This document shows positions 24,196 through 53,615 of a stretch of DNA of 53,615 nt, piece after piece. Both the position numbers and the translations under genes were made by a program. Under the pieces are notes generated by a model that saw only the letters and a list, made by a program, of their open reading frames with translations, did no database searches and was not told the origin of the DNA. This DNA is from Clostridia bacterium (GTDB taxonomy: Bacteria > Bacillota > Clostridia > Oscillospirales > CAG-272). The stretch covers positions 1 through 53,615 of the forward strand of contig JAFXAN010000126.1 of NCBI GenBank assembly GCA_017517035.1, written 5' to 3'. Within the stretch, counting starts at the first letter, position 1. Each line of letters opens with the position of its first letter.

Positions 24196-24208
24196 TTTTC
24201 ACTATCGG

Positions 24209-24247: not shown

Positions 24248-24268
24248 AAAATGAAAAGGAGACTTAAA

Positions 24269-29569: not shown

Positions 29570-29587
29570 AAAAATCACGAAAAAATC

Positions 29588-29621
29588 AAACAACCGAGGT
29601 CTGGTATGACCTTGGTTGTTT
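29588..29621. terminator. Intergenic hairpin after the esterase-LRR gene
   Basis: AAACAACCGAGGTC (29588-29601) pairs with GACCTTGGTTGTTT (29608-29621) with one G-T pair. The plus-strand side lacks a good T run, while the minus-strand side has TTTTTT, so plus-strand termination is only probable. Confidence 0.5.
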
Positions 29622-29661
29622 GGTGGTAATATTCTCTTAAAATGATAGGCGGTGTGCTTAT

Positions 29662-30537
29662 ATGCTTGATTTTTTGGTAGATTTTCTTGATAGATTCGAT
29701 TATCCGCAGGAGGCGAAGAAAGCATTTTATGATTGTTATAATGCTTTAATGGCAGATGGTGCTTCTAAAGAAGTTGTAAACAAGCACCTTGAAAATTATT
29801 CTCTTGGAAATGAATACAATCATGATTCAATGCTTTATCAGATAAAAACTGAGGCTACAAGGATCGGAATTCCGTGGCAGACAGCTCAGCTGCTTATGGT
29901 AATACTTCTTTCAAAATATTTGAAGGAAAAATACAAAGAAAAGGGGATCGAGGAGCAGGTCTGGGTAGATACCGTTGGCGATTTCAAATGTAAGCTTTAT
30001 GAATGTCATAAGGTGTACCATATTTGGGGAAGCTTTGTAGGTTGGTGGTGGAAGGATTTCTTCAGTATGAAGATTTTTGCTCTCGGAAGACTTCAATATG
30101 AAATGAAGCTATTTGATAAAGAATATAAAGATGAGAATGTCCATCTTACACCCGATATGAAGGCAATTTCCATTCATATCCCTTCATCAGGACCTCTTAC
30201 AAAGGAGCTTCGCGAGGATTCCTATAGGAGAGCAAAGGAATTTTTTAAGGATTATTTTGGTGATCAACCAACTCTGTTCATGTGTTCTTCCTGGCTTTTG
30301 TTTCCTGCACACGAGGAAATGATTCCAAAATCAAATATTGTTGATTTTATGCATGATTTCAATATTTTTGAAAGCACGGAGAGTGAAAAATTCGGAGAAC
30401 TTTGGAGAATTTTTGATGATAAATACAGTCTGCCCTATGAAGAGCTTCCGAGAGATACTTCCATGCGCCGTGCCTATGCCGAAAGACTTTGCGCAGGTAA
30501 AAAATTAGGAAAAGGAATAGGTTTTTTTATAAGATAA
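29662..30537 (+). CDS. Acyltransferase-like protein (NAT_N/GNAT_C, DUF5596 type)
   Basis: Cytoplasmic protein of 291 aa. I recognise the pattern of the two-part acyltransferase family (NAT_N plus GNAT_C): an alpha-helical N-terminus (about 1-125), then about 125-275 with IHIPSSGPLTKELREDSYRR, a stretch FFKDYFGDQPTLFMCSSWLL and the ending IVDFMHDFNIF. Members are thought to be GNAT-related acyltransferases without a defined substrate. It sits 20 bp before the next LRR_5 gene and is probably in one operon with it and the FAD oxidoreductase. The start codon follows a GGCGGTGTG stretch rather than a strong ribosome binding site. Confidence 0.6.
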   Translation: MLDFLVDFLDRFDYPQEAKKAFYDCYNALMADGASKEVVNKHLENYSLGNEYNHDSMLYQIKTEATRIGIPWQTAQLLMVILLSKYLKEKYKEKGIEEQVWVDTVGDFKCKLYECHKVYHIWGSFVGWWWKDFFSMKIFALGRLQYEMKLFDKEYKDENVHLTPDMKAISIHIPSSGPLTKELREDSYRRAKEFFKDYFGDQPTLFMCSSWLLFPAHEEMIPKSNIVDFMHDFNIFESTESEKFGELWRIFDDKYSLPYEELPRDTSMRRAYAERLCAGKKLGKGIGFFIR

Positions 30538-30557
30538 CAATGAAAGGGTAACAAAAT

Positions 30558-33500
30558 ATGAAATTTAAAAACAAATTTTTAATTTTCGCAAGCTTTGTGA
30601 TCGTTTTTTCTGCACTGATCACAATATGTGCTTTTGCTGCAGATAGCTCAGGATATACCTTTGATTCCGACAAAAAGACATATACCAATATTAAATGGAC
30701 ATTTACCGAAGAAAGTAAGACGGTAGTTTTTGAGATAGATGCTTCAGCTACCGACAAAAAGGCTTCAACAGTACTTTATGCTGTCGATCCCGAATCGGGT
30801 ATTTCAGGCTCTTGGAACAACCCCATTAAAGGCGGATGGGGACAGTCCACAGGTGTTAAGAAGGTCATTATCAAAGAAGGTATCACAGAAATAAACGGTT
30901 ACTTTTTTTCAAGTAATAAAACCTTGACAACGATTGAATTGCCAACTTCTCTTAAAAAGATCTCGGGCGAAGCTTGTTTCCAGGGATGTCGAGCACTTTC
31001 AAGTGTTTATGTGACGGGAAATTCACCTGTTGCGGGTGAGTTTGATTTCTCATGCGTTGAAAGCTTCGGTGGTGCCTCATACGTTTTTGACCATTGCGTA
31101 CTTATGGAAACTCTCAAGCTCTCCGATGCTCTTACCGGTAATATCGGCACGGAATTTATCAAAGCAATTCCGTCTCTTAAGGAGCTTGTTATACCTGCAG
31201 GTGTAAAAAATGTCAAGGACAAGGCTCTTACCGGTACATCGGGACTTAAGCTGCTCACAGTTCTCGGTTCAGAAACCGTTATTGCAAGTGATCTCGTGTT
31301 CAACGGTAACACAACTTATCCCGCAATTAAGGCGAAAGCAGGCTCAAAGGCGGCTGAATTTGCTCTTGCAAACGGATATACCTTTATCGATATCGACAGC
31401 GGTGTCGAAACAAAGGGTACAAAGCCTGCACCTGTTGAGACTCCCGAATCTTCAGGAAACACAGATAGCGGAAGTACGGAGCCTACCACTCCGCCTTCTA
31501 CAGGACTTGATGCCTTTGATCCCAATAAATGTACTGCTTACGGATATATCAAGGGTGAATATTACGATACATATTGGGTATATTACAGCGAAACAAAAAC
31601 ACTTAAATTTATATCCAATATTACATCCGGTTGGAATGAAACAGGTAGAATCGGAGTTGGCGATAATCCCGACGGTTGGAGTAAATATAAGGCAGAGATA
31701 GAGCACGTTGAGGTTGGTCCTTACATTAAAAAAGTATCATATCTGGCATTTAAGGATCATACAGCGCTGAAAGATATAAAGCTTAATGACAGCATCAGTG
31801 AAATAAATTCGGGTAGCTTTTCGGGTTGTACATCTCTTACAACAATTTGGCGAGAAGGTACGGAAAGAGTAGAGGGCAGAGCAGATCTTACAAAGCTTAA
31901 GGCACTTCCCAATGCTTTTGAAGGAACAAAGATCAATGAATTTCTTTTGGCAGATAATGTAACCATTGCAGAGGCATTTACAAGCAATGCTGTTACGCTT
32001 CTTACTGCCAATATTACCGATACCCTTATAAGCTATGCAAAGGAAAAGGGATATGACCTTAAGAGCACGGTCAACGCTTCCGAGGTTCATAATTATTATG
32101 ATTTAAGTAAGCGCAATTCGAGTTCAAGCTCTTCAGATCAGGACAAAGCAACCTTCAACAAGGATGAATGTACAGCTTACGGATATATTAAGGGCGATTA
32201 TTACGACACATATTGGGCGTATTACAGCGAAACAAAAACTCTTAAGTTCTTCGCATCCGACACTGCAAAGGGCTGGATCGAGACAGGAAGAATCGGTGCG
32301 GGCGAGAATGCGCTCAACTGGAGTGATTATAAAGATGAGATAGAATATGTTGAGATCGGTAGCGGAATTATCAAGGTCTCATATATTGCGTTTAAGGATC
32401 ATACAGCTCTTAAAGAGGTAAAGCTCGGCAAGGGTGTGACCAATATCGGCGAGGATGCCTTTTCGGGTTGTTCTTCTCTTACGACAATTTATCGCGACGG
32501 CGGTGAAAGAATTGAGGGAAGAGCTGACTTTTCAAAAATCGAAAGCGTGCCGAGACTTATTTCGGGCACACAAATAAAAGAAGTACTTCTTTCATCAAAG
32601 GCAAAGGTAAACGGTACATTTGGCTTCAATCTTCAGGACGTTATTTCTCCCGTTATCACAGAGGAGCTTATTCAGTATGTAAAAGAGAACGGATATAACC
32701 TTATCAACAGCAAAAATCCCGAAGAGAGATATGATCATTATATTGAAAAGCCCGATGATATGGTTATGTGCGGAGAAAAATGCGGATTTGGCTTTGATGA
32801 GTCAACAGGAACCCTTACAGTTTACGGCGCAGGCGATATGTCTGATGTTGTAAACTATTACGGAGGCGGTTCTAAAAATGCACCGTGGTTCTCGATAAAG
32901 CAGCAGATCAAGCATATCGTTATCGGAGAATATATTACAGCTATCGGTAAATATAACTTCACGCAGTGCCAGAATCTTGAAACAGTTCAGATTCCCGATG
33001 TCGAAGGATTTATCATTGGTAATGCGGCATTTGAGAAATGTACAAATCTTAAATCGGTTTACAGACAAGGAACAGAACCTATAGAAGGTACTCTTGATCT
33101 TAGCAAGGTTAACGAGATAAATGCATGGACATTTGCTTATGACTATTTGATCGCGAATGTAATAGTAAGCGAAAATACAAATGAGATCGGTAAATCTGTA
33201 TTTGAAGATAATGTTAATCTTCAAAGTATTTACGGTGTTCCGGAATCGTTTGCGGAAACATATGCTTCGGAAAACGGAAAAGCATTTTTTGATATTTCAG
33301 TAAGCACTCCCGAACCCATAAAATGTGAGATTCCCGAGACAACCGAGGCTCAAGTTCGTGAGACAGAGGTGGTAAGCGAAACACAGGATACAGATCTTGT
33401 CACAGATACAACGGATGATATGTTTTCATTCAACGATGAAACTGATGAAGCTGATGAAGCTGATGTAAATGACAGCGAGAACAGCAGAAGCGGAATAATA

Positions 33501-33587
33501 TATGTAATTATTATTGCGGTGGCAGTTGTAATCGTTGTTGCGGTGATTTTCATAATCATCAAAGGTAAGAAAAAAGCTTCCCGATAA
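30558..33587 (+). CDS. Membrane-anchored LRR_5 surface protein with duplicated module
   Basis: Surface protein of 1009 aa. Signal peptide about 1-28; C-terminal membrane helix about 978-1000 (IIYVIIIAVAVVIVVAVIFI) followed by the basic tail KGKKKASR, so it is a single-pass membrane protein with an outside domain. Residues 30-290 hold LRR_5-like repeats. Two very similar modules follow, about 320-530 and 533-735, each beginning KCTAYGYIKGEYYDTYW or ECTAYGYIKGDYYDTYW and containing FKDHTALK. A third, divergent LRR segment covers about 737-905, then an acidic Thr/Glu-rich linker (about 915-970). Unlike the two upstream LRR proteins it carries its own membrane anchor and lacks their shared C-terminal domain. 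Ligand unknown. Confidence 0.85.
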   Translation: MKFKNKFLIFASFVIVFSALITICAFAADSSGYTFDSDKKTYTNIKWTFTEESKTVVFEIDASATDKKASTVLYAVDPESGISGSWNNPIKGGWGQSTGVKKVIIKEGITEINGYFFSSNKTLTTIELPTSLKKISGEACFQGCRALSSVYVTGNSPVAGEFDFSCVESFGGASYVFDHCVLMETLKLSDALTGNIGTEFIKAIPSLKELVIPAGVKNVKDKALTGTSGLKLLTVLGSETVIASDLVFNGNTTYPAIKAKAGSKAAEFALANGYTFIDIDSGVETKGTKPAPVETPESSGNTDSGSTEPTTPPSTGLDAFDPNKCTAYGYIKGEYYDTYWVYYSETKTLKFISNITSGWNETGRIGVGDNPDGWSKYKAEIEHVEVGPYIKKVSYLAFKDHTALKDIKLNDSISEINSGSFSGCTSLTTIWREGTERVEGRADLTKLKALPNAFEGTKINEFLLADNVTIAEAFTSNAVTLLTANITDTLISYAKEKGYDLKSTVNASEVHNYYDLSKRNSSSSSSDQDKATFNKDECTAYGYIKGDYYDTYWAYYSETKTLKFFASDTAKGWIETGRIGAGENALNWSDYKDEIEYVEIGSGIIKVSYIAFKDHTALKEVKLGKGVTNIGEDAFSGCSSLTTIYRDGGERIEGRADFSKIESVPRLISGTQIKEVLLSSKAKVNGTFGFNLQDVISPVITEELIQYVKENGYNLINSKNPEERYDHYIEKPDDMVMCGEKCGFGFDESTGTLTVYGAGDMSDVVNYYGGGSKNAPWFSIKQQIKHIVIGEYITAIGKYNFTQCQNLETVQIPDVEGFIIGNAAFEKCTNLKSVYRQGTEPIEGTLDLSKVNEINAWTFAYDYLIANVIVSENTNEIGKSVFEDNVNLQSIYGVPESFAETYASENGKAFFDISVSTPEPIKCEIPETTEAQVRETEVVSETQDTDLVTDTTDDMFSFNDETDEADEADVNDSENSRSGIIYVIIIAVAVVIVVAVIFIIIKGKKKASR

Positions 33588-36499: not shown

Positions 36500-37561
36500 A
36501 TGGAAAAGATCAAAATTGGCATCATCGGAACCGGTAATATTTCAAGAGCTCATATAAAGAGCTATTTGAAAAATCCTAATGTTGAGCTTTATGCTTTCTG
36601 TGATATTCATGAGGGAAGACTTTATGAGGCAGGTAAGGAATTTGGAATTGAGAGACTTTATACAAATCTTGATGAGATGCTTGCACTCCCTGAGCTTGAT
36701 GCGGTAAGTGTTACAACATGGAACAGCGAGCATGCTCCTTGCACTATCAAGGCACTGAACGCCGGAAAGCACGTTCTTTGCGAGAAGCCTATGGCAACAA
36801 CTGTTGAGGATGCCATTGCTATGAAAGAAGCCGCAGAGAGAAACGGAAAACTTCTTATGATTGGTTTTGTGCGCAGATTTGGAAATGATATGAAGCTTAT
36901 CCGTGATTTCAAGGACAAAGAATATTTCGGAGAAATTTATTATTCAAAGGCTACATATGTTCGTCGCAACGGAAACCCCATGGGTTGGTTTGGAGACAAG
37001 AGCAGAAGCGGGGGTGGGCCGCTTATCGATCTTGGTGTACACGTTATCGACTTCGTTCGTTATGTTCTCGGCAATCCTAAACCTGTATCTGTTTATGGTG
37101 CAACCTTCAAAAAGCTTGGTGCAAGAACAAATATCAAGACACCAAAGGGATATGTAAGCTTCAGTGCAACAAAGGATGATATTTGTGACGTTGAAGACCT
37201 TTCAAGTGCAATGGTAAGATTTGATAACGGAGCTGTTCTTCAAATTGAAGCCGCCTTCAGCCTTAATACCACCTCAAATAAGGGTGAGATTGAGCTTTTC
37301 GGAACAAAGGCAGGCGTTAAGCTTGGTAAAACGCTTACCTTTGCAACCGAGACCAACGATTATCTCTCAAATGTTGAAATTTGCCAAGATGCATCCATCG
37401 ATTTCGACGGAATTTTCAAGGGAGAAATCAACCATTTTGTAGACTGTATTATGAATGGAACAAGATGTCAGAATCCCGCAGAGGACGGAATTGAGATTAT
37501 GAAGATTCTTGCAGCAATTTATCAGTCTGCCGAGACAGGTCATGAGGTAGTTATTGATTAA
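36500..37561 (+). CDS. Gfo/Idh/MocA-family oxidoreductase
   Basis: NAD(P)-dependent dehydrogenase of 353 aa. The Rossmann fold begins KIGIIGTGNISRAHIKSYL (GxGxxx motif), the catalytic EKP motif is in VLCEKPMATTVEDA (about 95-108), and the C-terminal beta domain includes GGPLIDLGVHVIDFVRYVLG with the likely catalytic His. Family members oxidise sugars, inositols or sugar phosphates. AGGAG precedes the ATG. It is paired, 24 bp apart, with a sugar isomerase/epimerase, a common combination in cyclitol and sugar catabolism. It is a canonical member, closer to the A type of the operon at 44-48 kb than to the unusual B type. Confidence 0.9.
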   Translation: MEKIKIGIIGTGNISRAHIKSYLKNPNVELYAFCDIHEGRLYEAGKEFGIERLYTNLDEMLALPELDAVSVTTWNSEHAPCTIKALNAGKHVLCEKPMATTVEDAIAMKEAAERNGKLLMIGFVRRFGNDMKLIRDFKDKEYFGEIYYSKATYVRRNGNPMGWFGDKSRSGGGPLIDLGVHVIDFVRYVLGNPKPVSVYGATFKKLGARTNIKTPKGYVSFSATKDDICDVEDLSSAMVRFDNGAVLQIEAAFSLNTTSNKGEIELFGTKAGVKLGKTLTFATETNDYLSNVEICQDASIDFDGIFKGEINHFVDCIMNGTRCQNPAEDGIEIMKILAAIYQSAETGHEVVID

Positions 37562-37585
37562 AACAGGAAAATCAGGGGTGAAAAA

Positions 37586-38470
37586 ATGAAAATTTCGGTT
37601 AGTTCGTATTCCTTTAGCAGTTATATCCGCGGGGGAAAGATGACGCAATTTGATACAGTAAAAAAAGCTGCCGAGCTTGGTTTTGAGGGGATTGAATTTA
37701 CTACTCTTGTACCAAATTCATCTCCGACAAAAGAGGAAAAACTGGAATATGCAAGAAAAATAAAGGCAGAGGCTGAAAAGTGTGGAATAGAGATTGTTGC
37801 TTATTGCGTTAGTGCAAGACTTTTTCAGCTTACAAAAGAAGATAATGCTTCGGTATTGAAGGCAGTGCTTGACGAGGTTGATGTTGCGGCAGAGCTTGGC
37901 GTACCTGTTATGCGTCATGATGTCACATGGAGTGTAAAATTCGGTGAAAATGGAGAAAAAACTGTAAGCTTCGACCACCAGCTTCCTTTAATTACGGAAA
38001 ATGTCAGGAAAATTACCGAGTACGCAAAGAAAAAGGGTATTCGTACTTGTAGCGAAAACCACGGCCACGTAGCACAGGACAGTGATAGGATTGAAAGACT
38101 TTATAATGCTGTTGCAGATGAAAATTACGGTATTCTTGTTGATATCGGAAATTTTGCCTGTGTCGATGAAAATCCTATTACTGCGGTTTCAAGGGTTGCT
38201 CCTTATGCTTTTCATGTTCATGCAAAGGATTTTTATAAAACTAATTTTGGAGAAGAAAATACCCGTAGCGGTGGGCATATAACAAGAGCCTGCAATATTC
38301 TTCACGGATGCGTTATCGGTGACGGTATTATCCCCGTCAAGCACTGTATTGCCGTTCTCAAAAAAGCCGGTTATGATGGCTTTGTTTCGATAGAATATGA
38401 GGGGGCTGATGATTGTATTAAGGCACTTGCAAGAGGGCTTAATAATCTCAGGTCATATATCGAAGAATAA
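37586..38470 (+). CDS. Sugar phosphate isomerase/epimerase (xylose isomerase-like TIM barrel)
   Basis: Metal-dependent TIM-barrel enzyme of 294 aa (AP endonuclease 2 superfamily). Barrel strands and likely metal ligands are seen in FEGIEFTTLVPNS, VMRHDVTWS, TCSENHGHVAQDSDRIERL, ILVDIGNFACVDENP, AFHVHAKDFYK and FVSIEYEGADD. Relatives include inosose dehydratases, 2-keto-myo-inositol isomerases and hydroxypyruvate isomerases. Together with the dehydrogenase just upstream it suggests oxidation followed by isomerisation or epimerisation of a sugar or cyclitol. A terminator follows 12 bp after the stop. The exact reaction is not assignable. Confidence 0.85.
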   Translation: MKISVSSYSFSSYIRGGKMTQFDTVKKAAELGFEGIEFTTLVPNSSPTKEEKLEYARKIKAEAEKCGIEIVAYCVSARLFQLTKEDNASVLKAVLDEVDVAAELGVPVMRHDVTWSVKFGENGEKTVSFDHQLPLITENVRKITEYAKKKGIRTCSENHGHVAQDSDRIERLYNAVADENYGILVDIGNFACVDENPITAVSRVAPYAFHVHAKDFYKTNFGEENTRSGGHITRACNILHGCVIGDGIIPVKHCIAVLKKAGYDGFVSIEYEGADDCIKALARGLNNLRSYIEE

Positions 38471-42914: not shown

Positions 42915-43850
42915 TCATTTATTTTCATTATGTTCCTTCAAAGCACCGGGGCCATCCTTATAATTTTTAATTCGTTCTCTGATTTCGCTCGGAGAGAACC
43001 CCTCTTCCTTTGCGAACATACGGCTGAAATAGCTTGGATTATCATATCCGAGAGAATAGGCGATTTCAGCAATCGAAAGCTCCGATGTTCGCAGAAGCTC
43101 AATGGCGTTTGAGATCTTATTTTTTGTGATATACTGAATGGGAGTTATTCCCAGATGCTTTCTGAAAAGGCGTATCATGTGCTGAGGTGAAAGATGGCAA
43201 AGCTCGCACAGTTGTTCTGTGGAGATTTTTTTATTATAATTCTGTTGAATAAATGAAAGTGCCTGACGTAGCGGTGGCGGTATGTCAGGGGGCACCGTGC
43301 TGCTTGCGGTGATTGAAATGACGTTAATTGATACCGAGGATAAAAATTCAACTAACTTCAGCGAGATAAGCAGCGGTGAAACATAGGTTGCTGAAATTTT
43401 TTTTTGTGGGATTTGACGGAGAAGTGTGCAAAGCTCATCAAAACCATCTCCTGTGTTTCCATGATGATTTATATAAAGGTGAGTTGGCAGAAGCGAAAGC
43501 CTTTTTTGAACAGAAAGCGATGCATTTTTGTTAATTATCTCCTTAAGCTCGTTTTCTGCTTCCTTGTTTGAGAGAGAATCAATGGTAGACCTTAGCATAA
43601 AATGAACATAAAGGAGTTTACAGCTTTTGTCATTTACAGGACGGCGAATATATTCTTTGCTTGGGGGTATGAGTATATAATCCCCCTTGCTTAATGTTAA
43701 ATTATTATCATCTATATCTATTCTGCAAGCCCCCTCGGTTATCAAAATGAGAATTGCGCGTCTGTCTGCACATCTCCATAGTGTTTTCCTTTCTATTTCA
43801 TATGTTTCTTCGATTTCCGGAAGTGTTTGCAGAGAGAGTTTATAAACCAT
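42915..43850 (-). CDS. AraC-family regulator divergent from the glycyl radical operon
   Basis: Regulator of 311 aa. The N-terminal sensor (about 10-130) includes ACRIDIDDNNLTLSKGDYIL, a cupin-like fold; the C-terminus holds two helix-turn-helix motifs, ISTEQLCELCHLSPQHMIRL and LSIAEIAYSLGYDNPSYFSR, ending in EGFSPSEIR. I chose the ATG at 43850 behind a GGGGGG-rich site; the longer frame adds 20 residues. It faces the seven-gene operon starting at 44008 across 157 bp, and two 12-bp direct repeats upstream of the operon promoter are likely binding sites. It is therefore the probable local activator; the inducer is unknown. Confidence 0.88.
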   Translation of the reverse strand: MVYKLSLQTLPEIEETYEIERKTLWRCADRRAILILITEGACRIDIDDNNLTLSKGDYILIPPSKEYIRRPVNDKSCKLLYVHFMLRSTIDSLSNKEAENELKEIINKNASLSVQKRLSLLPTHLYINHHGNTGDGFDELCTLLRQIPQKKISATYVSPLLISLKLVEFLSSVSINVISITASSTVPPDIPPPLRQALSFIQQNYNKKISTEQLCELCHLSPQHMIRLFRKHLGITPIQYITKNKISNAIELLRTSELSIAEIAYSLGYDNPSYFSRMFAKEEGFSPSEIRERIKNYKDGPGALKEHNENK

Positions 43851-43880
43851 AGTTCCCCCCCATTTCGGTTGCTTTTTGAA

Positions 43881-43913
43881 AATGTTAAAATTGTGCATAT
43901 GAATGTTCAAATT
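43881..43913 (+). promoter_or_regulatory. Tandem direct repeats, probable AraC operator
   Basis: AATGTTAAAATT (43881-43892) and AATGTTCAAATT (43902-43913) match in 11 of 12 bases with a 21-bp period, two helical turns. The downstream copy ends five bases before the -35 box, the usual position of AraC activator half-sites. Confidence 0.6.
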
Positions 43914-44007: not shown

Positions 44008-45102
44008 ATGTCAGCAAAAAAATGGAAGGTCGCAGTTGTTGGCTGTGGCACGTTCGCAAACGATCAGTATTTCCCCAATATAGCCAAGGAGGCAAATGCA
44101 GTCTGCGTTGCAGCTTGCGATATCGTACCCGAAAGAGCGCAGAGCGCTTGCGAGAAATACGGTATTCCCGAATGGTATACAAGTGTATATGAAATGTTAG
44201 AAAAGTGCGATTTTGATATCGCCATCGATGCAACCTCAATTCAGGCGCACCATGAGGTCAATATGGCGATTCTCGGGGCGGGCAAGCATCTTATCAGCCA
44301 AAAACCCGCTGCTCCCACGGTCGAATTGCTTACCGAGCAGATAGAGCTTGCAAAAAATAAGGGTGTTAAATTTGTGTGCGTACCGATTCATCCCATGAGA
44401 TTTGACCTTGCTGTTGCAAAGCAGATGATAGCAGATGGAGCCATCGGAGAGCTTTCATATATCAAGTGTAATGTTGCTCATGGAGGCCCTAACTATTTCC
44501 AGTACCGCGATGCTGACCCAACGTGGTTCTTCGAGGACGGTGCAGGAGCACTTGTTGATATGGGTGTTCACGGTATTCAGATAGTGACACATATGTTTGG
44601 CCCGGCAAAGAAGATCAGCTGTCTTGCGGCGGTTACAACACCCGAGAGAACGGTACGTTCAGGCAAATTTGACGGCAAAAAGATAAAGGCAGACAAGATT
44701 CCCGATCAGTATTTTATTAACATAACCTTTGCAAACGGAAAGATAGGCTTCATTGACACAGGATTTTCACAGAAGGCTTCAAAACAGCCTCAGCTTGAGA
44801 TCTACGGTAGCGAGGGAACAATTTCTCTTACATCAGGATATATGCAAAATCCTATGCCGAGCGTCTATATGGACGCACCCGAACGTGGAATCCGAGGTTG
44901 GGTAGAGCCTATGACATGGACGAGTATTCCGAAGAAGCTCATCAGCCAGTGCTGCTGTCTCCGTGATATAATCGAAGCCATTGAGGGTGAATGTGATCCT
45001 ATGCTGACACCCGAGCACGCAAGACACGTGCTTGAGATCATGTGTAAGATCCCCGAGGCGGTAAAAACGGGTGCTACCGTTGAGCTTGAAACAACATTTT
45101 AA
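44008..45102 (+). CDS. Gfo/Idh/MocA oxidoreductase, type A, first operon gene
   Basis: Probable NAD(P)-dependent sugar or polyol dehydrogenase of 364 aa. Rossmann motif VAVVGCGTFANDQYFPNIA; the usual EKP motif appears as QKP (HLISQKPAAPT), keeping the catalytic Lys but losing the Glu. The C-terminal domain has GAGALVDMGVHGIQIVTHMF. CGGAG precedes the ATG. Its stop is followed after 12 bp by the type B gene. It resembles the third gene (46214) and the pair A-B seems duplicated as A'-B'. The family could act on sugars, inositols or N-acetyl sugars; the operon context suggests a first oxidation before radical chemistry. Confidence 0.88.
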   Translation: MSAKKWKVAVVGCGTFANDQYFPNIAKEANAVCVAACDIVPERAQSACEKYGIPEWYTSVYEMLEKCDFDIAIDATSIQAHHEVNMAILGAGKHLISQKPAAPTVELLTEQIELAKNKGVKFVCVPIHPMRFDLAVAKQMIADGAIGELSYIKCNVAHGGPNYFQYRDADPTWFFEDGAGALVDMGVHGIQIVTHMFGPAKKISCLAAVTTPERTVRSGKFDGKKIKADKIPDQYFINITFANGKIGFIDTGFSQKASKQPQLEIYGSEGTISLTSGYMQNPMPSVYMDAPERGIRGWVEPMTWTSIPKKLISQCCCLRDIIEAIEGECDPMLTPEHARHVLEIMCKIPEAVKTGATVELETTF

Positions 45103-45114
45103 GAGGTGATTCGA

Positions 45115-46194
45115 ATGGATAAATTAAGAGTTGCATTTTTCGGAGCAGCACATCCCCATGTGGATGCCATTATGGAAACAATAGTGAACAATTCCGAGGA
45201 TTTTGAAATTATCGGGTTTGCCGAGGTTTCCTTTCCACCGAGAGACCCGTTTACATATGACGAAAAACACAGCATAATTGTTGGCACCTTCAAATGTCCC
45301 GAATATGACGATTGGAAAACTCTTGCTTCTCTTAATGTGGACCTTGCGGTGGTAAATTCGGACAATGCGGCAAGAGAGGAGATATGCTGTTATCTGCTTT
45401 CAATGGGAATAAATGTTCTTGACGAAAAGCCTATGGCGATGAATTATGCCGCGGCAAAGAGAATGTGCGATATTGCAAAGGAAAACGGTGTTCATATGCT
45501 CACAAACTGGCCTATTGCATGGTTTCCTGCGTTCCGTCTTGCCAAAAAGCTTCTTGACGAGGGCAGAATAGGAAAGCTGATGAAGGTCACATACAGAAGC
45601 CCCGCAACATGGGGGCCGTTCTCATACAGAGAATTTGTAAAATATCCAACAGAGCATTTTAAGGATAGCTGGTGGTATAAGGCTGAATACGGAGGCGGTT
45701 CTATCCTTGACTATGCTTGCTACGGTGCGATACTTTCCACATGGATGTTCGGAAAAAGAGCCGAAAGAGTTTGCTGCATGACAAAGCAGTTTGTAACAAC
45801 ATTTTCAGATGTTGAGGACTGGAGCGCAATGCTTCTCGATTTCGGTGACGGAGTTGGAATGATCGAAGGCTCGTGGGCAACATATAACAGTGGAGAGGTT
45901 CCTTCGGGGCCTATACTTCACGGAACGGAGGGAACTATCGTCTGCGAGAGACATTCGACAATAGTTAAGGTTTATGAAGGCAAGAGTCACACCCCCGTAG
46001 AGCCTACGGAGATTATAGATGCAGGCATTGCAGACCAGTCAACAGCACTTGGCAAACATCTTGCAAGAGTGATTCGAGGCGAGGAAGAGCCGGTGGATAT
46101 GCTCAGCACCGAGGTTAATCTTTCGGTGGTAGCCGCTCTTGATGCGGGAATAAAATCCGCAAAAACAGGAAAAACAGTAGAAGCAGAAAAATAA
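45115..46194 (+). CDS. Gfo/Idh/MocA oxidoreductase, unusual type B
   Basis: Dehydrogenase of 359 aa from the ATG at 45115 behind GAGGTGAT. The N-terminal nucleotide-binding loop is atypical, VAFFGAAHPHVDAIMETI instead of GxGxxA. The catalytic motif VLDEKPMAMNYAAAKRM is normal. Shared with the fourth gene are the loop pattern AHxHV, NWP (LTNWPIAWFP), the run SWWYKAEYGGGSILDYACYG and a W-(M/L)-FG motif. These mark a distinct subfamily. The substrate is unknown. It forms a two-gene unit with the type A gene before it. Confidence 0.85.
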   Translation: MDKLRVAFFGAAHPHVDAIMETIVNNSEDFEIIGFAEVSFPPRDPFTYDEKHSIIVGTFKCPEYDDWKTLASLNVDLAVVNSDNAAREEICCYLLSMGINVLDEKPMAMNYAAAKRMCDIAKENGVHMLTNWPIAWFPAFRLAKKLLDEGRIGKLMKVTYRSPATWGPFSYREFVKYPTEHFKDSWWYKAEYGGGSILDYACYGAILSTWMFGKRAERVCCMTKQFVTTFSDVEDWSAMLLDFGDGVGMIEGSWATYNSGEVPSGPILHGTEGTIVCERHSTIVKVYEGKSHTPVEPTEIIDAGIADQSTALGKHLARVIRGEEEPVDMLSTEVNLSVVAALDAGIKSAKTGKTVEAEK

Positions 46195-46213: not shown

Positions 46214-47332
46214 ATGAGTAAGCTCAGAGTTGCCGTAATAGGTACCGGAATGATAGCAAACAGTGCACATTTTCCTGCACTTAACGATCTTAGAAAAGAA
46301 GGACTTATCGAGGTTGTAGGCGTTGCGGACATCCGTGAGGAGGTTGCGGCAGAAACTGCAAAGAGACACGATGTTCCGAATTATTATAAAGACCCCCAGA
46401 AGATGCTTGACGAGCTTAAACCCGATTTTGTTGCGGTATGCACACCAAATATGTACCATAAGGAATGGACAATAAAGGCTCTTAAAGCCGGAGCACACGT
46501 TGCCTGCGAGAAGCCTATGGGACTATCTGTCTCCGATGTTAAGGAGATGTGGCAGACTGCAAAGGACTGCGGAAAGATGCTTTTCCCTTGTCAGTGCATG
46601 AGATGGAGAAATTATATGCAGCAGTCAAAGATTCTTGTGGATAGCGGTGAGCTTGGAGATGTTTATTTCTCGGATATCGAGTTCATCAGAAGAATTGGAA
46701 TCCCTACGTGGGGTATGTTCCATATGAAGGAGCATAATTTCGGTGGCCCGTTCTGCGATCTCGGAGTTCATCTTATCGACTCACTTCTATGGATTGTTGG
46801 AGATAAGAAGGTCGAGGCGGTTTCGGGAAGTGCATATACAAAAATCGCAAATCAGGGGGAGGATATTCTTCTCAGCATTGCGGAGAGCGGCGCATATTCG
46901 GGCGCATTCACCCCAAGAAAATATGATTATAAGGAATTTAACGTTGAGGAATTTTCAACAGGTTTTATGCGTCTTGAAGGAGGCATGAGCGTTAATTTTA
47001 AGTTCTCCTGGGCGCTCAATCTTCCCACAACAAATCTTGATATGGTAATCTGCGGTGATAAGGGCGGTCTTTCGGTAAATAAGGAAAAACTCTATAAGAA
47101 TATCGGCAAATTCCAGTCGGAATGTGATATGAAATGGTTTGATAACGGTGCATATAAGGGAGTTGCATTCGAGCAGCACAGATATATGTACAGAAATATC
47201 ATAAACACACTTGCAGGTAAGGAAGAATACCTCATAAAAGAGCATCAGAATATTGAGGTCACAAAGGCAATAGAGTGCTTCTATAAGTCTGCAGAGCTCC
47301 GTCGCGAGGTAAGAGTGGAGGAGCTTAAATGA
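46214..47332 (+). CDS. Gfo/Idh/MocA oxidoreductase, type A'
   Basis: Dehydrogenase of 372 aa with a canonical Rossmann motif (VAVIGTGMIANSAHFPALN), catalytic EKP in HVACEKPMGLSVSDV, and the C-terminal motif GGPFCDLGVHLIDSLLWIVG. AGGAG lies before the ATG. The next gene begins inside its stop codon (ATGA), so translation is coupled. It is the second type A member; compared with the first it keeps EKP rather than QKP, suggesting specialisation after duplication or different substrates. Confidence 0.88.
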   Translation: MSKLRVAVIGTGMIANSAHFPALNDLRKEGLIEVVGVADIREEVAAETAKRHDVPNYYKDPQKMLDELKPDFVAVCTPNMYHKEWTIKALKAGAHVACEKPMGLSVSDVKEMWQTAKDCGKMLFPCQCMRWRNYMQQSKILVDSGELGDVYFSDIEFIRRIGIPTWGMFHMKEHNFGGPFCDLGVHLIDSLLWIVGDKKVEAVSGSAYTKIANQGEDILLSIAESGAYSGAFTPRKYDYKEFNVEEFSTGFMRLEGGMSVNFKFSWALNLPTTNLDMVICGDKGGLSVNKEKLYKNIGKFQSECDMKWFDNGAYKGVAFEQHRYMYRNIINTLAGKEEYLIKEHQNIEVTKAIECFYKSAELRREVRVEELK

Positions 47333-48426
47333 GTATTCGTGCCGTAATTTGCGGCTGTGCCCATATGCACGTAAATGAGGTCGCCCTTTACATAAGCGAG
47401 CAAACATCAACAGAGCTTTGCGGTGTTGCGGATATCGCTCCCGAATTTCCCGAAAATACCGATAAAAGATATACCCGTGCATGGAATTTCAAAAATGTTG
47501 TTGAAAAATATTCTGCAAAGCCTTTTGATGATTACAAAAAAATGCTTGATGAGATAAAGCCCGATGTTGCTTACCTTCTCTGCGAGAACTATCGCAAGGC
47601 AGAAATAGCAGAAGAAATTGCAAGGCGCGGTATTAACGTCATCATCGAAAAGCCTATGGCAACAACGGCTTCAGAGGCTCGAAAAATCGTTTCATTAAAA
47701 GAAAAATACGGAGTTGAGATATACGTCAACTGGCCCGTTACTTGGCGTAGATACATCCGTGAGATGAAGGCAACTGTTGATAGCGGAAGGCTTGGAAAGA
47801 TTCAGAAGCTTCGATATCTCAACGGTCATACAGGACCTCTGGGCAAGGGCGCAAAGCACCGCGGCGTAAGCGCAAAGGCTGAAGAAATGACAGACGAGGA
47901 AAGAGGACGTACTTGGTGGCACCAAAAGAAGTGCGGCGGCGGTGCGTATCTTGATATTCTTTGTTACGGTTGCTATTTCAGCAGATGGCTGTTTGGAAAG
48001 CTTCCCGTTGATATTATGTCTGTTGGCGAAAATCTAAACACTCCTTTTGGTGACACAGAAGATAATATTGCTGCAATTCTACGATTTGAGGATGGATTTG
48101 CGGTAGCCGAGGGCACGTGGACTACTCCCAGAAGAAGAATGCCCACAGGCCCCGAGATCATTTGCTCCGACGGTGTTGTCTGGTGTGACGGAGTTCCGGA
48201 TGGCGAGGCATTTGTTGCGGCTTCCGACATTTACGGAAATGACATTGACGCAGATCATCAGAAGGACGACGAGCACTTTCGCAATATGCCTTGGCACTAT
48301 GCTGCACATGTGAAGCAGGGAATGCCCATTCACGAAACACTTACAGCAGAGTTCAATGCGGATGTGGTTGCCATGATCGAAGCGGCTGAACGCTCAAATG
48401 CGAGCCGCAAAGCAGAAAAAGTGTGA
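47329..48426 (+). CDS. Gfo/Idh/MocA oxidoreductase, unusual type B'
   Basis: Dehydrogenase of 365 aa and second member of the atypical subfamily: nucleotide loop AVICGCAHMHVNEVALYI, catalytic NVIIEKPMATTASEA, then VNWPVTWRRYI, TWWHQKKCGGGAYLDILCYG and SRWLFGK, lining up with the type B gene at 45115. The start overlaps the previous stop by four bases, and its own stop overlaps the activase start (TGATG). Such tight coupling suggests the dehydrogenases, activase and radical enzyme are needed together. Confidence 0.85.
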   Translation: MSIRAVICGCAHMHVNEVALYISEQTSTELCGVADIAPEFPENTDKRYTRAWNFKNVVEKYSAKPFDDYKKMLDEIKPDVAYLLCENYRKAEIAEEIARRGINVIIEKPMATTASEARKIVSLKEKYGVEIYVNWPVTWRRYIREMKATVDSGRLGKIQKLRYLNGHTGPLGKGAKHRGVSAKAEEMTDEERGRTWWHQKKCGGGAYLDILCYGCYFSRWLFGKLPVDIMSVGENLNTPFGDTEDNIAAILRFEDGFAVAEGTWTTPRRRMPTGPEIICSDGVVWCDGVPDGEAFVAASDIYGNDIDADHQKDDEHFRNMPWHYAAHVKQGMPIHETLTAEFNADVVAMIEAAERSNASRKAEKV

Positions 48427-49223
48427 TGAATAAAGAAAATATAAGCGCACGAGTCACCGAAATAGAAAGATTTTCGGTGCACGACGGTCCCGGGATACGT
48501 ACTGTGGTCTTTCTCAAAGGCTGTCCTTTAAATTGTGCTTGGTGTCATAACCCCGAGTGTATCTCATTTGAAAAACAAACCTTGGTATATACGGAAAAAT
48601 GTATCGGCTGCGGCAAATGCGATCAGGGGTGCTATTCGGGCGCAAGAGTTGAGTGCGGAAAAGAAATGACCGTTGATCAGGTGATGGAAGAGGTGCTCCA
48701 GGATCAGATATATTATGGAGAGCACGGAGGTCTGACTATTTCAGGCGGTGAGCCTTTGGCACATAGAGAATTTACAATGGCTCTCATTCGCGCATGCCGA
48801 GAAAAAAATATAAAGGTAGGTATCGAGACCTCGCTTTACCGTTTTGACGAAGAGTTGCTTTCTTCGCTCGACCTGATAATGGCCGATATGAAGATATTTG
48901 ATTGTGATATTCATCGCAAATGGGTAGGAGTCGGAAACGAGGAGATAAAAAACAATCTCTGCCGAGCAAACGAACTTGGTATACCCATGATTGTTCGCAC
49001 ACCTGTGATCTGTGGAATAAATGACAACACGGAAAACGTAAAGCGAACAGCTGAATTTTTGCGTGAGCTTAAAAACGTAACGTCCTATGAGCTTTTGCCT
49101 TATCATCCATTGGGAGTTTCCAAGGCAGAGGCACTTGGGATAAAGCAAACAGAATTTAAAACACCCTCACAAAGTCAAATGGAGGAACTTAATAAATATG
49201 CTGACATATCAAGACAGACTTGA
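48426..49223 (+). CDS. Glycyl radical enzyme activating enzyme (radical SAM)
   Basis: Iron-sulfur enzyme of 265 aa that uses S-adenosylmethionine to install the glycyl radical on its partner, encoded next. The radical-SAM cluster motif CxxxCxxC is C33, C37, C40 (GCPLNCAWC), preceded by the family signature FSVHDGPGIRTVVFLKGC. A ferredoxin-like insert carries C59, C62, C65 and C69 (CIGCGKCDQGC) for an extra [4Fe-4S] cluster. SAM-binding ISGGEPL is at 106-112. Start ATG at 48426 overlaps the preceding stop; a GTG one codon earlier is possible. The gene overlaps the radical enzyme gene by 26 bp. Length and motifs are normal, so it should be active. Confidence 0.93.
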   Translation: MNKENISARVTEIERFSVHDGPGIRTVVFLKGCPLNCAWCHNPECISFEKQTLVYTEKCIGCGKCDQGCYSGARVECGKEMTVDQVMEEVLQDQIYYGEHGGLTISGGEPLAHREFTMALIRACREKNIKVGIETSLYRFDEELLSSLDLIMADMKIFDCDIHRKWVGVGNEEIKNNLCRANELGIPMIVRTPVICGINDNTENVKRTAEFLRELKNVTSYELLPYHPLGVSKAEALGIKQTEFKTPSQSQMEELNKYADISRQT

Positions 49224-51414
49224 CGCTATGCGTCGTACCAAGATCGAGCATACGCTGGCAAAAAAAGAACAGAACGGATATACCGATCTTGACGATTTCG
49301 GTACTGTTCCGCTACCCGAGGACTATTATGTTGAGCCTTGGTACAACAGCGAGAACGGTAGCTTTTATGGACTTGAAGGTATGAGCGAGAATTTCTGCAG
49401 AGTAATGGCTGCACATCCGGCCTATGTCGATCCGATGGAAATGCTTTGCGGCAGATGGCGTGATATGCTTGTGAACTATCGCGGAGATATACATTATCTT
49501 CCCAATTGGATAAAAAAGAACGAAAAGCTTTATAACTTTATCGCAAGTGGTGCAACAGCACAGTGGAGCAAGCGTTGGGACGAAAAACGGTTTCCATACG
49601 ACGATCTCAAGCCTCTCCAGAAAAAGTACAATATTCAGACCGGTATTGACGGAGATGCTCATTTTGCCTGCGATTACCGCATTGGTCTTGAGCTTGGCTT
49701 TGGCGGACTTCTTGACAAAATAGAAAAATATCGCAAGATCAATACGGATAAAAAGGACTTTTATGATGCCGAAGAGCGTTGTGTTCGTGCCATTATTGAT
49801 TTTATTGACAGACATATAGAAAAGATTCGGGAGATGATTCCGTTAGAGGATCGGCCCGAGATCAAGGAAACTCTTTTGAAGATGCTTTCCGTATGTGAAA
49901 ATATTCGTCTGGGAGCGCCCAAGACTTTTCATGAGGCTTGTCAATGGGTAAGCTTTTTCAATTGTGCAGCACGAGTTTTCACTCGTGACGGTGCAGGTTT
50001 CCAGCTGGATACTATCTTGTATCCTTACTATGAAAACGATATAAAGAGCGGTGAGCTTGATGACGAAAGAGCAAAATTCCTCATCGCAAATCTTCTGCTC
50101 ATTGATCCTCATTACTATCAAATCTCCGGTGTTGATGCCGAGGACCGCGATCTGACAAACCATCTGTCCTATCTTATTCTTGATGCGGCAGATTCTATCA
50201 ATATTTCCTGTAATCTTACGGTCAGAGTTCATGAAAATTGCGATCAGTCGTTTCTGCACCGTGCGGTGGAATATTTGTTTAAGAATAAAAACGGTTGGCC
50301 TCGTTTTTGCGGTGATAAGAACCTATGCGAGGGCTATATGCGCAACGGTGTGGACAAACAGACAGCCAGAGAGCGTATTGCTGTAGGTTGTAATTGGATG
50401 TGTGTTCCCGGTAAGGAATTTCCAATGAACGATACGGTCAAGATCAACGTGGCAAAGGTTCTTGAAGTAGCACTTGAGGAAATGAAAAATGAAAACGAAA
50501 GAAGCGCAGAATACCTCTATTCCATTTTCGAAAAGCATCTTAAAAAAGCTATTGAGGTCACCGCAGCAGGTGTAAACCACCATCTTGACCACGTTCACGA
50601 CGTAACTCCGGAGCTTATTATGAACCTTATGTTCACCGGATCCATTGAAAAGGGACTCGATGCCTCTCAATGTGCCGAGCTGTTCACGGTGGGGGTTGAC
50701 GGAGCAGGTCTTGCTGTTGTTGCCGACTCTTTTGGCGCTATCTCTACAAGAATTGAAGAAGAAAAGGCTCTTTCTTGGGATCAGCTCTATGAGGCTCTTG
50801 AAAGTGATTTTGCGGACGAGCGAATTCGCTTGATGCTCAATTCTTCGCCCAAATATTGTCATGGAAACACTGTGTCCGATGAGTGGGCGAAACGTTTGAC
50901 GAAAACTTGGACAAAGCTTGTAAAAGCTCAGAAAATGCCCAATGGCAGACAGCTTGTTCCCGGTTGGTTCTCCTGGGCGCGCAGTATTGAATACGGGTCT
51001 ACCGTCGGTGCTATGCCTAACGGAAGAAAAGCATACGAGCCAATCTCCCACGGTGCAAATCCCAATCCGCATTTCAGAGTTGACGGGGCGGTCACTGCAC
51101 AGTCGAACGGAATTGCATCCGTTCAGTGCGGATATGGTAATACGGCTCCGCTTCAGATCGAGTTTGACCCTAAAATCACAATGGAGCAGGGCGGTGTTGA
51201 CATCGTTCTTGACTTCATCAAGGCTCATATTGCAAGCGGTGGAACACTGATAAATATTAACATTCTCGATTCGGAAAGGCTCATGGAGGCCCACAAGGAT
51301 CCCACGCTTCATCCCGATCTTGTGGTGCGTGTGACCGGATTTACGGCATATTTTGCCTCACTGTCACCCAAATTCCGTCAGCTTGTTGTTGATCGTTTCC
51401 TTGAAGGAATGTAA
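49198..51414 (+). CDS. Glycyl radical enzyme of uncertain class (PFL-like)
   Basis: Radical enzyme of 738 aa in the pyruvate formate-lyase superfamily. The glycyl radical site is G714 in VVRVTGFTAYF near the C-terminus, and the active-site loop carries C398 in AVGCNWMCVPGKEF. Diol dehydratases, choline lyase and related classes have GCxE there; this protein has Asn, Trp and no Glu, and a second Cys at 402. It also lacks the adjacent Cys pair of pyruvate formate-lyase. Its class is therefore unknown to me, although the fold and radical residues are complete. Start ATG at 49198, with GGAGG at 49181-49185 inside the activase gene. The four dehydrogenases upstream and FAD oxidoreductase downstream suggest a polyol, cyclitol or keto-sugar-derived substrate; this is inference. 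Confidence 0.9.
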   Translation: MLTYQDRLDAMRRTKIEHTLAKKEQNGYTDLDDFGTVPLPEDYYVEPWYNSENGSFYGLEGMSENFCRVMAAHPAYVDPMEMLCGRWRDMLVNYRGDIHYLPNWIKKNEKLYNFIASGATAQWSKRWDEKRFPYDDLKPLQKKYNIQTGIDGDAHFACDYRIGLELGFGGLLDKIEKYRKINTDKKDFYDAEERCVRAIIDFIDRHIEKIREMIPLEDRPEIKETLLKMLSVCENIRLGAPKTFHEACQWVSFFNCAARVFTRDGAGFQLDTILYPYYENDIKSGELDDERAKFLIANLLLIDPHYYQISGVDAEDRDLTNHLSYLILDAADSINISCNLTVRVHENCDQSFLHRAVEYLFKNKNGWPRFCGDKNLCEGYMRNGVDKQTARERIAVGCNWMCVPGKEFPMNDTVKINVAKVLEVALEEMKNENERSAEYLYSIFEKHLKKAIEVTAAGVNHHLDHVHDVTPELIMNLMFTGSIEKGLDASQCAELFTVGVDGAGLAVVADSFGAISTRIEEEKALSWDQLYEALESDFADERIRLMLNSSPKYCHGNTVSDEWAKRLTKTWTKLVKAQKMPNGRQLVPGWFSWARSIEYGSTVGAMPNGRKAYEPISHGANPNPHFRVDGAVTAQSNGIASVQCGYGNTAPLQIEFDPKITMEQGGVDIVLDFIKAHIASGGTLININILDSERLMEAHKDPTLHPDLVVRVTGFTAYFASLSPKFRQLVVDRFLEGM

Positions 51415-51431: not shown

Positions 51432-52712
51432 TTGGAACATATTAAGTACGAAAAATATTTGACAGTAAAGAAAAAATATGATGTGATCGTGTGTGGAGGC
51501 GGTGTTGCAGGTGTTGCGGCAGCCGTAAGCTCTGCTAAAAACGGATTGTCAACTCTTCTTCTTGAAAAAAGCAATATTCTCGGCGGTCTTGGTACACTCG
51601 GACTTATAAATCTGTTTGTTCCTATGTGTAATGGACGTGGAAAGCAAATAATTTTTGGGCTTGCCGAAAAATGGCTTCGGAAAAGTGCGGAGCTTGGCTG
51701 GGATACCATTCCCTTTGAGTGGAAAAACGGTGAACCTAAAGAAGAGACCAAGGTTCGGTACATACAAAGATATTCTCCGACGATTTTCGCATATCAGCTT
51801 ACAGAAGAGATAACAAAAAGCGGTGCAGATATTCTTTTTGATTGCATGGCGATCGATCCTGTAATGGAGGGCAATGTTTGCCGTGGTGTCATAACCGAAA
51901 GCAAAGGCGGGACCGAGTTTTACGGATGCCGAATACTGATCGATACCACGGGAGATTGTGATGTTTTGCGACGCGGTGGCATACCGTGTGAAAACGGAGA
52001 AAATTTCTTTTCCTTCTTTACAAAAATGGTGGATCTCGAAAGCTGTAAAAAAGCGGTTGAAATGGGGGATATACGATATTTGTATAAGGATCTCAGCGGA
52101 GGCAGTATCAACCTTTTTGGTGACGGTCAACCTGATGACATACCGCGCTGGTCAGGACTTTCCGCAGAAAATGTGACTGATTATATCGTTCGAAATCATC
52201 TTTTGATTCTCGAAAAACTGAAAAACAGCGATAGAAAAACTCGAGATATCGTCACCTCGCCCGGGATGCCTCAGTTCAGAACCACCTGCCATATTAGGGG
52301 CGATTATTCTCTGAAGCTTTCCGACGCATACCGCCATTTTCATGATTCAATATGTGCGATTAACGATTTTGAGCATAGAGATCATCTTTTTGAGATTCCG
52401 TTTCGTTGTCTCGTTAGAAGTGACTATCCCAATATAATCACCGCAGGCAGAAGCGCGGATGGCACGGGCTACGGTTGGGATCTGCTTCGTGTAATACCTC
52501 CGGCTATCCTTACAGGACAAGCAGCAGGGGAAGCTGTTTCACTTGCTCTTAAGACAGGGAAAAATATTGCTGAGCTTGATATAAAGGCTCTGCAAAATAC
52601 CCTTGAAAAGAACGATGTAATGATTCACTTTCCTGATGAATATATACCCGAAGACAGAACGGTAAATATACACGGTAAAAATGCCGCAGAAATTGATGGC
52701 GGTCATATGTAA
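51432..52712 (+). CDS. FAD-dependent oxidoreductase (FAD_oxidored family), copy 2
   Basis: Cytoplasmic flavoprotein of 426 aa, last complete gene of the operon. FAD-binding motif YDVIVCGGGVAGVAAAVSSA, then LEKSNILGGLGTLGLINLF and VPMCNGRGKQIIFGLAEKWL; the second contact region is GRSADGTGYGWDLLRVIPPA. The start is TTG at 51432 with AGGAG nine bases upstream, 17 bp after the radical enzyme. It matches the protein at 33598-34830 along nearly its whole length (for example the N-terminal and VRYIQRYSP regions), so the two are recent paralogues. It may feed or remove electrons from an intermediate of the radical pathway; unproven. Confidence 0.85.
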   Translation: MEHIKYEKYLTVKKKYDVIVCGGGVAGVAAAVSSAKNGLSTLLLEKSNILGGLGTLGLINLFVPMCNGRGKQIIFGLAEKWLRKSAELGWDTIPFEWKNGEPKEETKVRYIQRYSPTIFAYQLTEEITKSGADILFDCMAIDPVMEGNVCRGVITESKGGTEFYGCRILIDTTGDCDVLRRGGIPCENGENFFSFFTKMVDLESCKKAVEMGDIRYLYKDLSGGSINLFGDGQPDDIPRWSGLSAENVTDYIVRNHLLILEKLKNSDRKTRDIVTSPGMPQFRTTCHIRGDYSLKLSDAYRHFHDSICAINDFEHRDHLFEIPFRCLVRSDYPNIITAGRSADGTGYGWDLLRVIPPAILTGQAAGEAVSLALKTGKNIAELDIKALQNTLEKNDVMIHFPDEYIPEDRTVNIHGKNAAEIDGGHM

Positions 52713-52919: not shown

Positions 52920-53615
52920 ATGAATATTATAACATCAGAAGCCCACTTTCGTCAACGGGTATTGAAATATTCGTTAAAAAATGGAGTGACAGCAGCGAGC
53001 ATACGGTTCAAAAGAAGCAGACAAGCGATATACGAATGGAAAAGGAAGTGGGACGGAAAAAGTTGGCACAGCTTAGTAGAAAAGAGCCATCGTCCACATC
53101 ATCATCCAAATGAACACACGGCAGAAGAGAAAGAAATGATCTTACGCCGTTATCCCCGATACAAAGACGATATGATGCTTCTTTGGAATTCATTGCGCAA
53201 GAGCGGGTATACACGAAGCTATACAAGCTTGGTAAGGGTAGTGCGCAAATATGGGTGCAGCCGAAGATTAAAAAGCGTACAGCAAGGAAAAATAAGCCTT
53301 ATACAAGAGCAGAATATCCCGGCCAAAAGGTACAGGTGGACGTAAAGTTTGTACCCTCTTATTGCGTTACACATGGGCAAAAATTCTATCAGTACACCGC
53401 AGTTGATGAATGTACTCGCTGGACATACAGAGAAATGTATGAGGAACACAGCACAGACGGTTCGGTGCGTTTCCTTGTGAATTTAATAAAAAGCGGTCCT
53501 TTTCCAATAAGAGAAATACAAACGGACGATGACAGACCGTTTGACCGATTTGCAAAAGCGGACATATTGGTCGTCGTCAACGCACGGATATGGGCTTGGT
53601 GTCAGATGTCCGATG
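52920..53615 (+). pseudogene. DDE transposase, frameshifted and incomplete
   Basis: The first frame starts MNIITSEAHFRQRVLKYSLK with a helix-turn-helix (AASIRFKRSRQAIYEWKRKW) and HRPHHHPNEHTAEEKEM, typical of IS3/IS481-like integrase-type transposases. Family similarity then moves to the -1 frame near a run of five A at 53270-53274 and continues as KKRTARKNKPYTRAEYPGQ and KVQVDVKFVPSYC, with catalytic Asp (VQVDVKF) and YTAVDECTRW, to IREIQTDD. Restoring one A joins the two parts smoothly as SRRLKKRTARKNKPYTRAEY. So there is either a one-base deletion, an assembly error or a -1 ribosomal slip at AAA. The stop of the first frame is at 53343-53345. The C-terminal third lies outside the window. 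Confidence 0.75.

Follow-up and report, generated by a model that had tools for sequence, protein, structure and literature searches.

The glutamate of the CXE motif is conserved among glycyl radical enzyme (GRE) eliminases (PMC7077986; PMC8473560). It is regarded as the proton acceptor in all of these enzymes, and its replacement kills IslA: the E470Q variant showed no detectable activity (PMC8473560). What reaction, then, is catalyzed by a GRE that possesses tryptophan at this site? The question is raised by a gene in the window, that is, the whole stretch of DNA that we analyzed (53,615 nucleotides of a contig from a Clostridia bacterium). If Trp at the Glu site is invariant in a clade, either there is another way to run radical elimination or the reaction is a different one. 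The original prediction for this gene was a GRE with thiyl Cys398 and radical Gly714, without the GCxE motif and possibly of an undescribed class. The gene and the codons considered here are as follows.

49181..49185, + strand: GGAGG sequence resembling a ribosome-binding site of the GRE gene (read from the sequence)
49198..51414, + strand: W-type GRE, 738 aa (Pfam PF02901/PF01228, AF2 model, Foldseek)
49660..49662, + strand: codon of His155, aligned to glycerol dehydratase His164 and invariant in alignment A2
50389..50391, + strand: codon of Cys398, presumed thiyl radical site (alignment with 2f3o, 1r8w and 8yjo; invariant)
50395..50397, + strand: codon of Trp400, in place of the CXE Glu (all 62 distinct relatives have C-x-W)
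50401..50403, + strand: codon of Cys402, not conserved (Ser, Cys or Ala in relatives)
50416..50418, + strand: codon of Glu407, candidate substitute acid/base, invariant in alignments A1 and A2
50431..50433, + strand: codon of Asp412, aligned to glycerol dehydratase Asp447 and invariant in A2
51337..51339, + strand: codon of Gly714, radical glycine (RVTGFTAYF; alignment with solved GREs)

The open reading frame is complete, starts with ATG and overlaps the upstream activase open reading frame (48423-49223) by 26 bases. The protein matched the PFL-like family PF02901 (2e-96) and the Gly_radical family PF01228 (4.6e-10). In the alignment with the solved GREs 2f3o, 1r8w and 8yjo, Cys398 corresponds to their catalytic Cys and Gly714 to their radical Gly. 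Thus, the prediction of a GRE with these two residues was borne out by the Pfam matches and the alignment. The other marks of the superfamily are also present: the C-terminal RVxG[FWY] loop (RVTGF at Gly714), a catalytic Cys in the middle of the protein within a PFL-like barrel (the Cys398 alignment, PF02901 and the fold match), and a cognate radical SAM activase nearby (48423-49223). The AF2 model has a pLDDT of 88 and a pTM of 0.90. Its best Foldseek match was glycerol dehydratase (1r8w; TM 0.80, 19% identity), followed by propanediol dehydratase, PflD, HypD and CutC. As modelled, the fold appears to be that of an eliminase, yet the CXE motif that defines the eliminase class is absent. The dN/dS value against a paralogue of 76% identity was about 0.07, at a dS of 2.5, which is near saturation; other pairs were saturated at silent sites. 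Judged from this comparison, the gene is under strong purifying selection.

The Cys-loop motif is GCNWMC. Therefore, Trp400 stands at the position of the eliminase CXE Glu. We gathered relatives from searches of genomes of the same family and of a named genome collection, and C-x-W was found in all 62 distinct sequences (from Clostridia, Oscillospiraceae, Christensenella-type bacteria and Spirochaetes). The predicted absence of GCxE was thus confirmed, as was that of a neighbouring Cys of the pyruvate formate-lyase type: Cys398 is followed by Asn399. Cys402, which had been singled out as a special feature, fared differently. Because position 402 varies among Ser, Cys and Ala, Cys402 is not a feature of the clade and was rejected as a catalytic residue. 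In a 41-row alignment, positions 155, 407, 412, 339, 343, 501, 510, 511, 618 and others were invariant. His155, Glu407 and Asp412, together with Cys398, are invariant among the W-type relatives, and Glu407 most readily suggests itself as a possible replacement acid. The numbers of glycerol dehydratase His164 and Asp447 were counted on the alignment, and the roles that we ascribe to these residues are presumed. Cys, Gly and activase are retained throughout the W-type clade.

We then consider whether this clade belongs to a described class. A tree was made with E. coli PflB, PflD and YbiW, three HypD, three CutC, the other 17 GREs of the same genome and 18 W-type sequences. The W-type rows formed a single clade with support of 100, and the stem of this clade is long, at 1.5 changes per site. 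Clustering was the check proposed with the original prediction, and in this tree of representatives the W clade stood apart from CutC, HypD, PflD, YbiW, PflB and the 17 other GREs. The mutual order of some of these 17 is unsure because of long branches. The score of the window GRE against the PFL2-3 subfamily model was 278.6 bits (cut-off 678). Against the NCBIfam GRE equivalogs, whose cut-offs for full-length enzymes are about 1000 or more, it was at most 208 bits. Identity as HypD, CutC, 3-sulfopropanediol dehydratase, a decarboxylase or PflD was rejected by the NCBIfam cut-offs, and the tree also rejected HypD, CutC, PflD and YbiW. IslA and the glycerol and propanediol dehydratases were compared with the window GRE by pairwise score only. 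Because the protein does not cluster with the tested GREs and scores far below the equivalog cut-offs, an undescribed isofunctional clade is a fair reading. Its membership in the GRE superfamily and in a clade of its own is well supported by these sequence comparisons. In this sense the predicted new class stands, but not as a new kind of system: it is reasonable to regard the W-type as a new clade with an altered catalytic motif and as a variant of the GRE kind. A literature search, in which coverage of subscription journals was thin, found no publication on this clade.

The W clade is divided into three subclades. Subclade A contains the window GRE, and its members are about 67-77% identical to it. 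Subclade B (about 45-49% identical) has members in Neglectibacter timonensis, Chakrabartyella piscis and a spirochaete; the members of subclade C are about 35-38% identical. The bacteria that carry W-type genes live in the guts of mammals, birds, fish and termites. Among the matches listed, roughly a tenth of 246 family genomes possess a W-type member, and none was found in a sample of 298 other genomes of the phylum at E 1e-130. The clade is thus patchy and concentrated in the family of the host. The host genome itself (3.07 Mb, 165 contigs) has an unusual GRE repertoire. In the stretches that were read (loci L083-L098), 20 GREs were found, 13 with CXE and 7 without it. The latter are three W-type enzymes and enzymes with GCNM (L091:7319), GCNQ (L084:7054), GCYN (L087:6373) and ACCT (L098:6430). 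Most relatives had 0-4 GRE matches; one family genome had 7, and two order genomes had 7 and 11. Many of the GREs in L084, L085, L087, L089, L091, L092 and L095 adjoin an AraC regulator, with no recognised activase in the stretch read. Their activases may therefore be shared. Because the set is large and 7 of its 20 members do not possess CXE, the genome is a good place to seek new radical chemistry in plant-glycoside breakdown.

The neighbouring genes may show on which substrates the enzyme acts. Their order is AraC regulator (on the opposite strand), Gfo1, Gfo2, Gfo3, Gfo4, activase, GRE and FAD oxidoreductase.

42915..43910, - strand: AraC-family regulator, divergent from the operon (Pfam)
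44008..45102, + strand: Gfo1, DgpA1-like dehydrogenase (phmmer 9m3d, 7.7e-25, residues 5-361)
45106..46194, + strand: Gfo2, Gfo/Idh/MocA dehydrogenase with D..CY motif (Pfam, motif reading)
46214..47332, + strand: Gfo3, relative of DgpA-type glycoside 3-dehydrogenases (phmmer DgpA 7xr9, 1.2e-52, residues 1-362)
47329..48426, + strand: Gfo4, Gfo/Idh/MocA dehydrogenase with D..CY motif (Pfam, motif reading, locus comparison)
48423..49223, + strand: GRE-activating radical SAM enzyme, 266 aa (TIGR02494, 2e-81; Cys motifs)
51432..52712, + strand: FAD-dependent oxidoreductase, PF12831 (Pfam)

The activase scored 273 bits against TIGR02494 (cut-off 174). The activases of subclade A, including that of the window, have a single auxiliary CxxCxxCxxxC motif, and many in subclades B and C have two. 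Gfo3 matched DgpA over its full length with 182 bits and DgpA1 with 171 bits; the best non-DgpA chain gave 85 bits. Gfo3 is, on these scores, a full-length relative of DgpA and is predicted to be of the glycoside 3-dehydrogenase type. Because its identity to DgpA is only about 30%, transfer of the substrate is unsafe. Gfo1 is nearest to DgpA1 by phmmer, and a gene 53% identical to it lies near the W-type GRE of Neglectibacter timonensis. Gfo2 and Gfo4 are of a second type, with the catalytic motif D..CY instead of D..H.

In subclade A, Gfo4 is the steadiest partner of the activase-GRE pair. The order Gfo3-Gfo4-activase-GRE is repeated in five loci (L044, L046, L050, L052 and L057) and beside the paralogue in L088, and Gfo3 is 87-89% identical in three relatives. 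In L051, relatives of both Gfo3 and Gfo4 are present and are not contiguous. In two loci of subclade B, L060 and L061, the GRE adjoins a relative of Gfo3 (45-47% identical), and in a third, L053, relatives of Gfo1 (53%) and Gfo4 (31%) lie near the GRE. Overall, 22 of 36 W-GRE loci had a Gfo gene within 6 kb; for the other GREs of the host genome, the figure was 0 of 16 loci (Fisher 2.8e-5, a value that overstates independence because the co-occurring loci are related). The neighbourhoods of subclades B and C vary, and 14 of the 36 loci do not have a Gfo gene within this distance. The original prediction matched the neighbourhood to none of the familiar GRE operons, such as cut, pdu-type, hyp, isl or pfl. 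This statement should be qualified, in that the four dehydrogenases are not a chance collection: two of them resemble DgpA, a known type of glycoside 3-dehydrogenase, and the pair adjoining the activase is conserved.

The FAD oxidoreductase is retained in only 2 of 36 W-GRE loci, and a search of solved structures gave no informative relative of it. Several sugar-type neighbours recur beside the relatives, namely AP_endonuc_2 TIM barrels, ThuA, glucuronate isomerase, GH28, GH26 and ABC sugar transporters; sialidase-like repeats with a DHDPS-family aldolase were also seen. A uronate isomerase adjoins the GRE of L078, and GH28 adjoins that of L031. The beta subunit of C-glycoside lyase (PF19906) was not found in the host genome, which is 97% complete. 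As a positive control, the same search gave a match in 1 of 199 genomes of a phylum sample. Among annotated neighbours, in which open reading frames of fewer than 90 aa are not listed, neither the accessory small subunits nor the hydrocarbon-type operon of X-succinate synthases was recognised.

Several other features of these loci were observed. About 5.5 kb upstream of the operon, the window encodes a further pair of Gfo/Idh/MocA and AP_endonuc_2 proteins (36500-38470), which is typical of keto-sugar pathways. The region 21391-33587 encodes three large leucine-rich-repeat proteins of the BspA type, of which one has a domain resembling acetyl xylan esterase, and a GH26 enzyme is encoded at 17882-19849 on the - strand; in L088, too, GH26 comes after the GRE paralogue. 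In the last part of the window (52920-53614), a helix-turn-helix open reading frame (PF13518) overlaps a second, open-ended one; together they resemble a portion of a transposase gene that may be frameshifted. In L047 (6020-8179), L048 (6043-8205) and L049 (6054-8201), a second GRE, with GCGE, immediately precedes the activase and the W-type GRE. These GCGE enzymes are only 21-22% identical to it, and two different GREs thus have one activase in common.

From these results, we tentatively propose that the encoded GRE is functional, belongs to an uncharacterised isofunctional clade and works in an anaerobic 3-oxo-glycoside pathway. It would be a radical lyase or dehydratase whose substrate is a glycoside in oxidised (3-oxo) form or an anhydro-sugar. 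DgpA first oxidises puerarin at C3 of its sugar, and a separate complex then cleaves the C-C bond (PMC8563793). An enzyme close to DgpA accepts many C- and O-glycosides, which it oxidises at C3; its NAD stays bound during a ping-pong cycle with 3-oxo-glucose, and, like DgpA-type enzymes, it is unable to cut the C-glycosidic bond (PMC11239390). The proposal is consistent with the intact catalytic Cys, Gly and activase, with the invariant C-x-W, His155, Glu407 and Asp412, and with the eliminase fold, for which glycerol dehydratase is the best structural match. The relationship of Gfo3 and Gfo1 to DgpA and DgpA1, the enrichment of Gfo genes at W-GRE loci, the recurrent sugar-type neighbours and the lack of a PF19906 match in the genome point in the same direction. 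A precedent is provided by YbiW and PflD, which are reported as GREs that open 1,5-anhydro-sugar rings (PMC12441222). However, they perform this related ring opening with the Glu kept. The 14 loci without a nearby Gfo gene, the varying neighbourhoods of subclades B and C and the low identity of Gfo3 to DgpA also argue against the proposal.

The mechanism may be as follows. The activase would put the radical on Gly714, which would hand it to Cys398. Gfo3 and Gfo1, possibly with Gfo4 and Gfo2, would act on a glycoside or anhydro-polyol and turn one of its sugar hydroxyls into a ketone. The Cys398 thiyl radical would then abstract the hydrogen adjacent to the ketone, and the resulting alpha-keto radical would expel the beta C-O (or C-C) bond or open the ring without the CXE Glu base. 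We propose that this is possible because the hydroxyl of an alpha-keto radical is more acidic than that of a plain polyol, and the ketone may thus partly stand in for the absent Glu. Trp400 may pack on the sugar ring, and His155 and Asp412 may hold hydroxyls as in glycerol dehydratase. Afterwards, the dehydrogenases might reduce the product, thereby recycling tightly bound NAD. In its full form, namely a base-free radical elimination on 3-oxo-glycosides (C-glycosides or anhydro-sugars) in which the ketone made by a partner dehydrogenase replaces Glu, as a radical counterpart of the DgpBC lyase, the idea is speculative and on balance unlikely. The dehydrogenase partners point to a concrete and testable substrate class, glycosides, and the glycoside hypothesis is open to test by existing biochemistry and with two culturable hosts.

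The nearest rival, itself possible if somewhat doubtful, is an ordinary dehydratase of a polyol, cyclitol or sugar acid. Here Glu407, Asp412 or His155 would replace the CXE Glu in proton transfer, and the dehydrogenases would act downstream on the product. The invariance of these three residues, the alignment of Asp412 and His155 with glycerol dehydratase residues and the eliminase-like fold agree with a moved base, and the uronate isomerase at L078 and GH28 at L031 give some relatives a sugar-acid context. By itself, however, a moved base leaves two things unexplained: the recurrent DgpA-type Gfo partners, and why the replacing residue is an invariant Trp and not a small one.

Known GREs without the CXE Glu, such as pyruvate formate-lyase and the X-succinate synthases, perform C-C chemistry. 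Cys398 might accordingly attack, or abstract a hydrogen, beside the ketone made by a dehydrogenase, and a sugar carbon chain or C-glycosidic bond would be split, much as pyruvate formate-lyase and C-glycoside lyases do. The DgpA pathway ends in C-C cleavage (PMC8563793), and the genome gave no match to the usual lyase subunit. We consider a C-C lyase improbable: the adjoining second Cys of pyruvate formate-lyase is absent, Cys402 is not conserved, and the similarity to PflB (59.5 bits) and BSS (56 bits) is weak. A radical epimerase, in which the thiyl radical removes and returns one sugar hydrogen and an acid/base Glu is unnecessary, would account simply for the loss of the base and would suit the sugar dehydrogenases and epimerase-like AP_endonuc_2 proteins nearby. 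We know of no GRE epimerase, however, and the neighbours already supply an NAD-dependent ketone route to epimers, which makes this reading very improbable. Finally, a degenerate or regulatory GRE without catalysis, which the missing Glu and the inactive IslA E470Q (PMC8473560) might suggest, is hardly credible given that Cys, Gly and activase are kept across the clade at a dN/dS of about 0.07.

Among known systems, the GRE eliminases are close to the window GRE in form. It has the same fold (TM about 0.8), Cys and Gly loops and activase as glycerol/propanediol dehydratase, CutC, HypD and IslA, and shares the His155 and Asp412 positions with glycerol dehydratase. In contrast to these enzymes, which keep the CXE Glu, it possesses an invariant Trp; it is also shorter (738 aa), is only 19-22% identical to them and, in the tree, lies in another clade than the CutC, HypD and PflD sequences included there. 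YbiW and PflD, described as lyases of 1,5-anhydroglucitol-6-P and 1,5-anhydromannitol-6-P, act on sugar-like rings and are a good fold match to the window GRE. Unlike it, they keep CXE (GCIE and GCVE) and use phosphorylated PTS-derived substrates, whereas dehydrogenases and no PTS were seen at the window locus. Pyruvate formate-lyase and the X-succinate synthases resemble the window GRE in the absence of the CXE Glu, but the former has an adjacent Cys-Cys in its active site, where the window GRE has Asn399 after Cys398. The dgp/dfg clusters for C-glycoside deglycosylation (DgpA, DgpB and DgpC) have the DgpA-type dehydrogenase in common with this locus, and an AP_endonuc_2 protein with some of the W-GRE relatives; in contrast, the published descriptions that we found of them include no GRE, and the host genome gave no match to the DgpB-type subunit (PF19906). 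Aminoacyl radical enzymes, in which Ala, Ser or Thr replaces the radical Gly (PMC11528403), are, like the W-type GREs, non-canonical GRE homologues from gut genomes. They change the radical residue, whereas the window GRE keeps Gly714 and the Glu of its Cys loop is changed instead.
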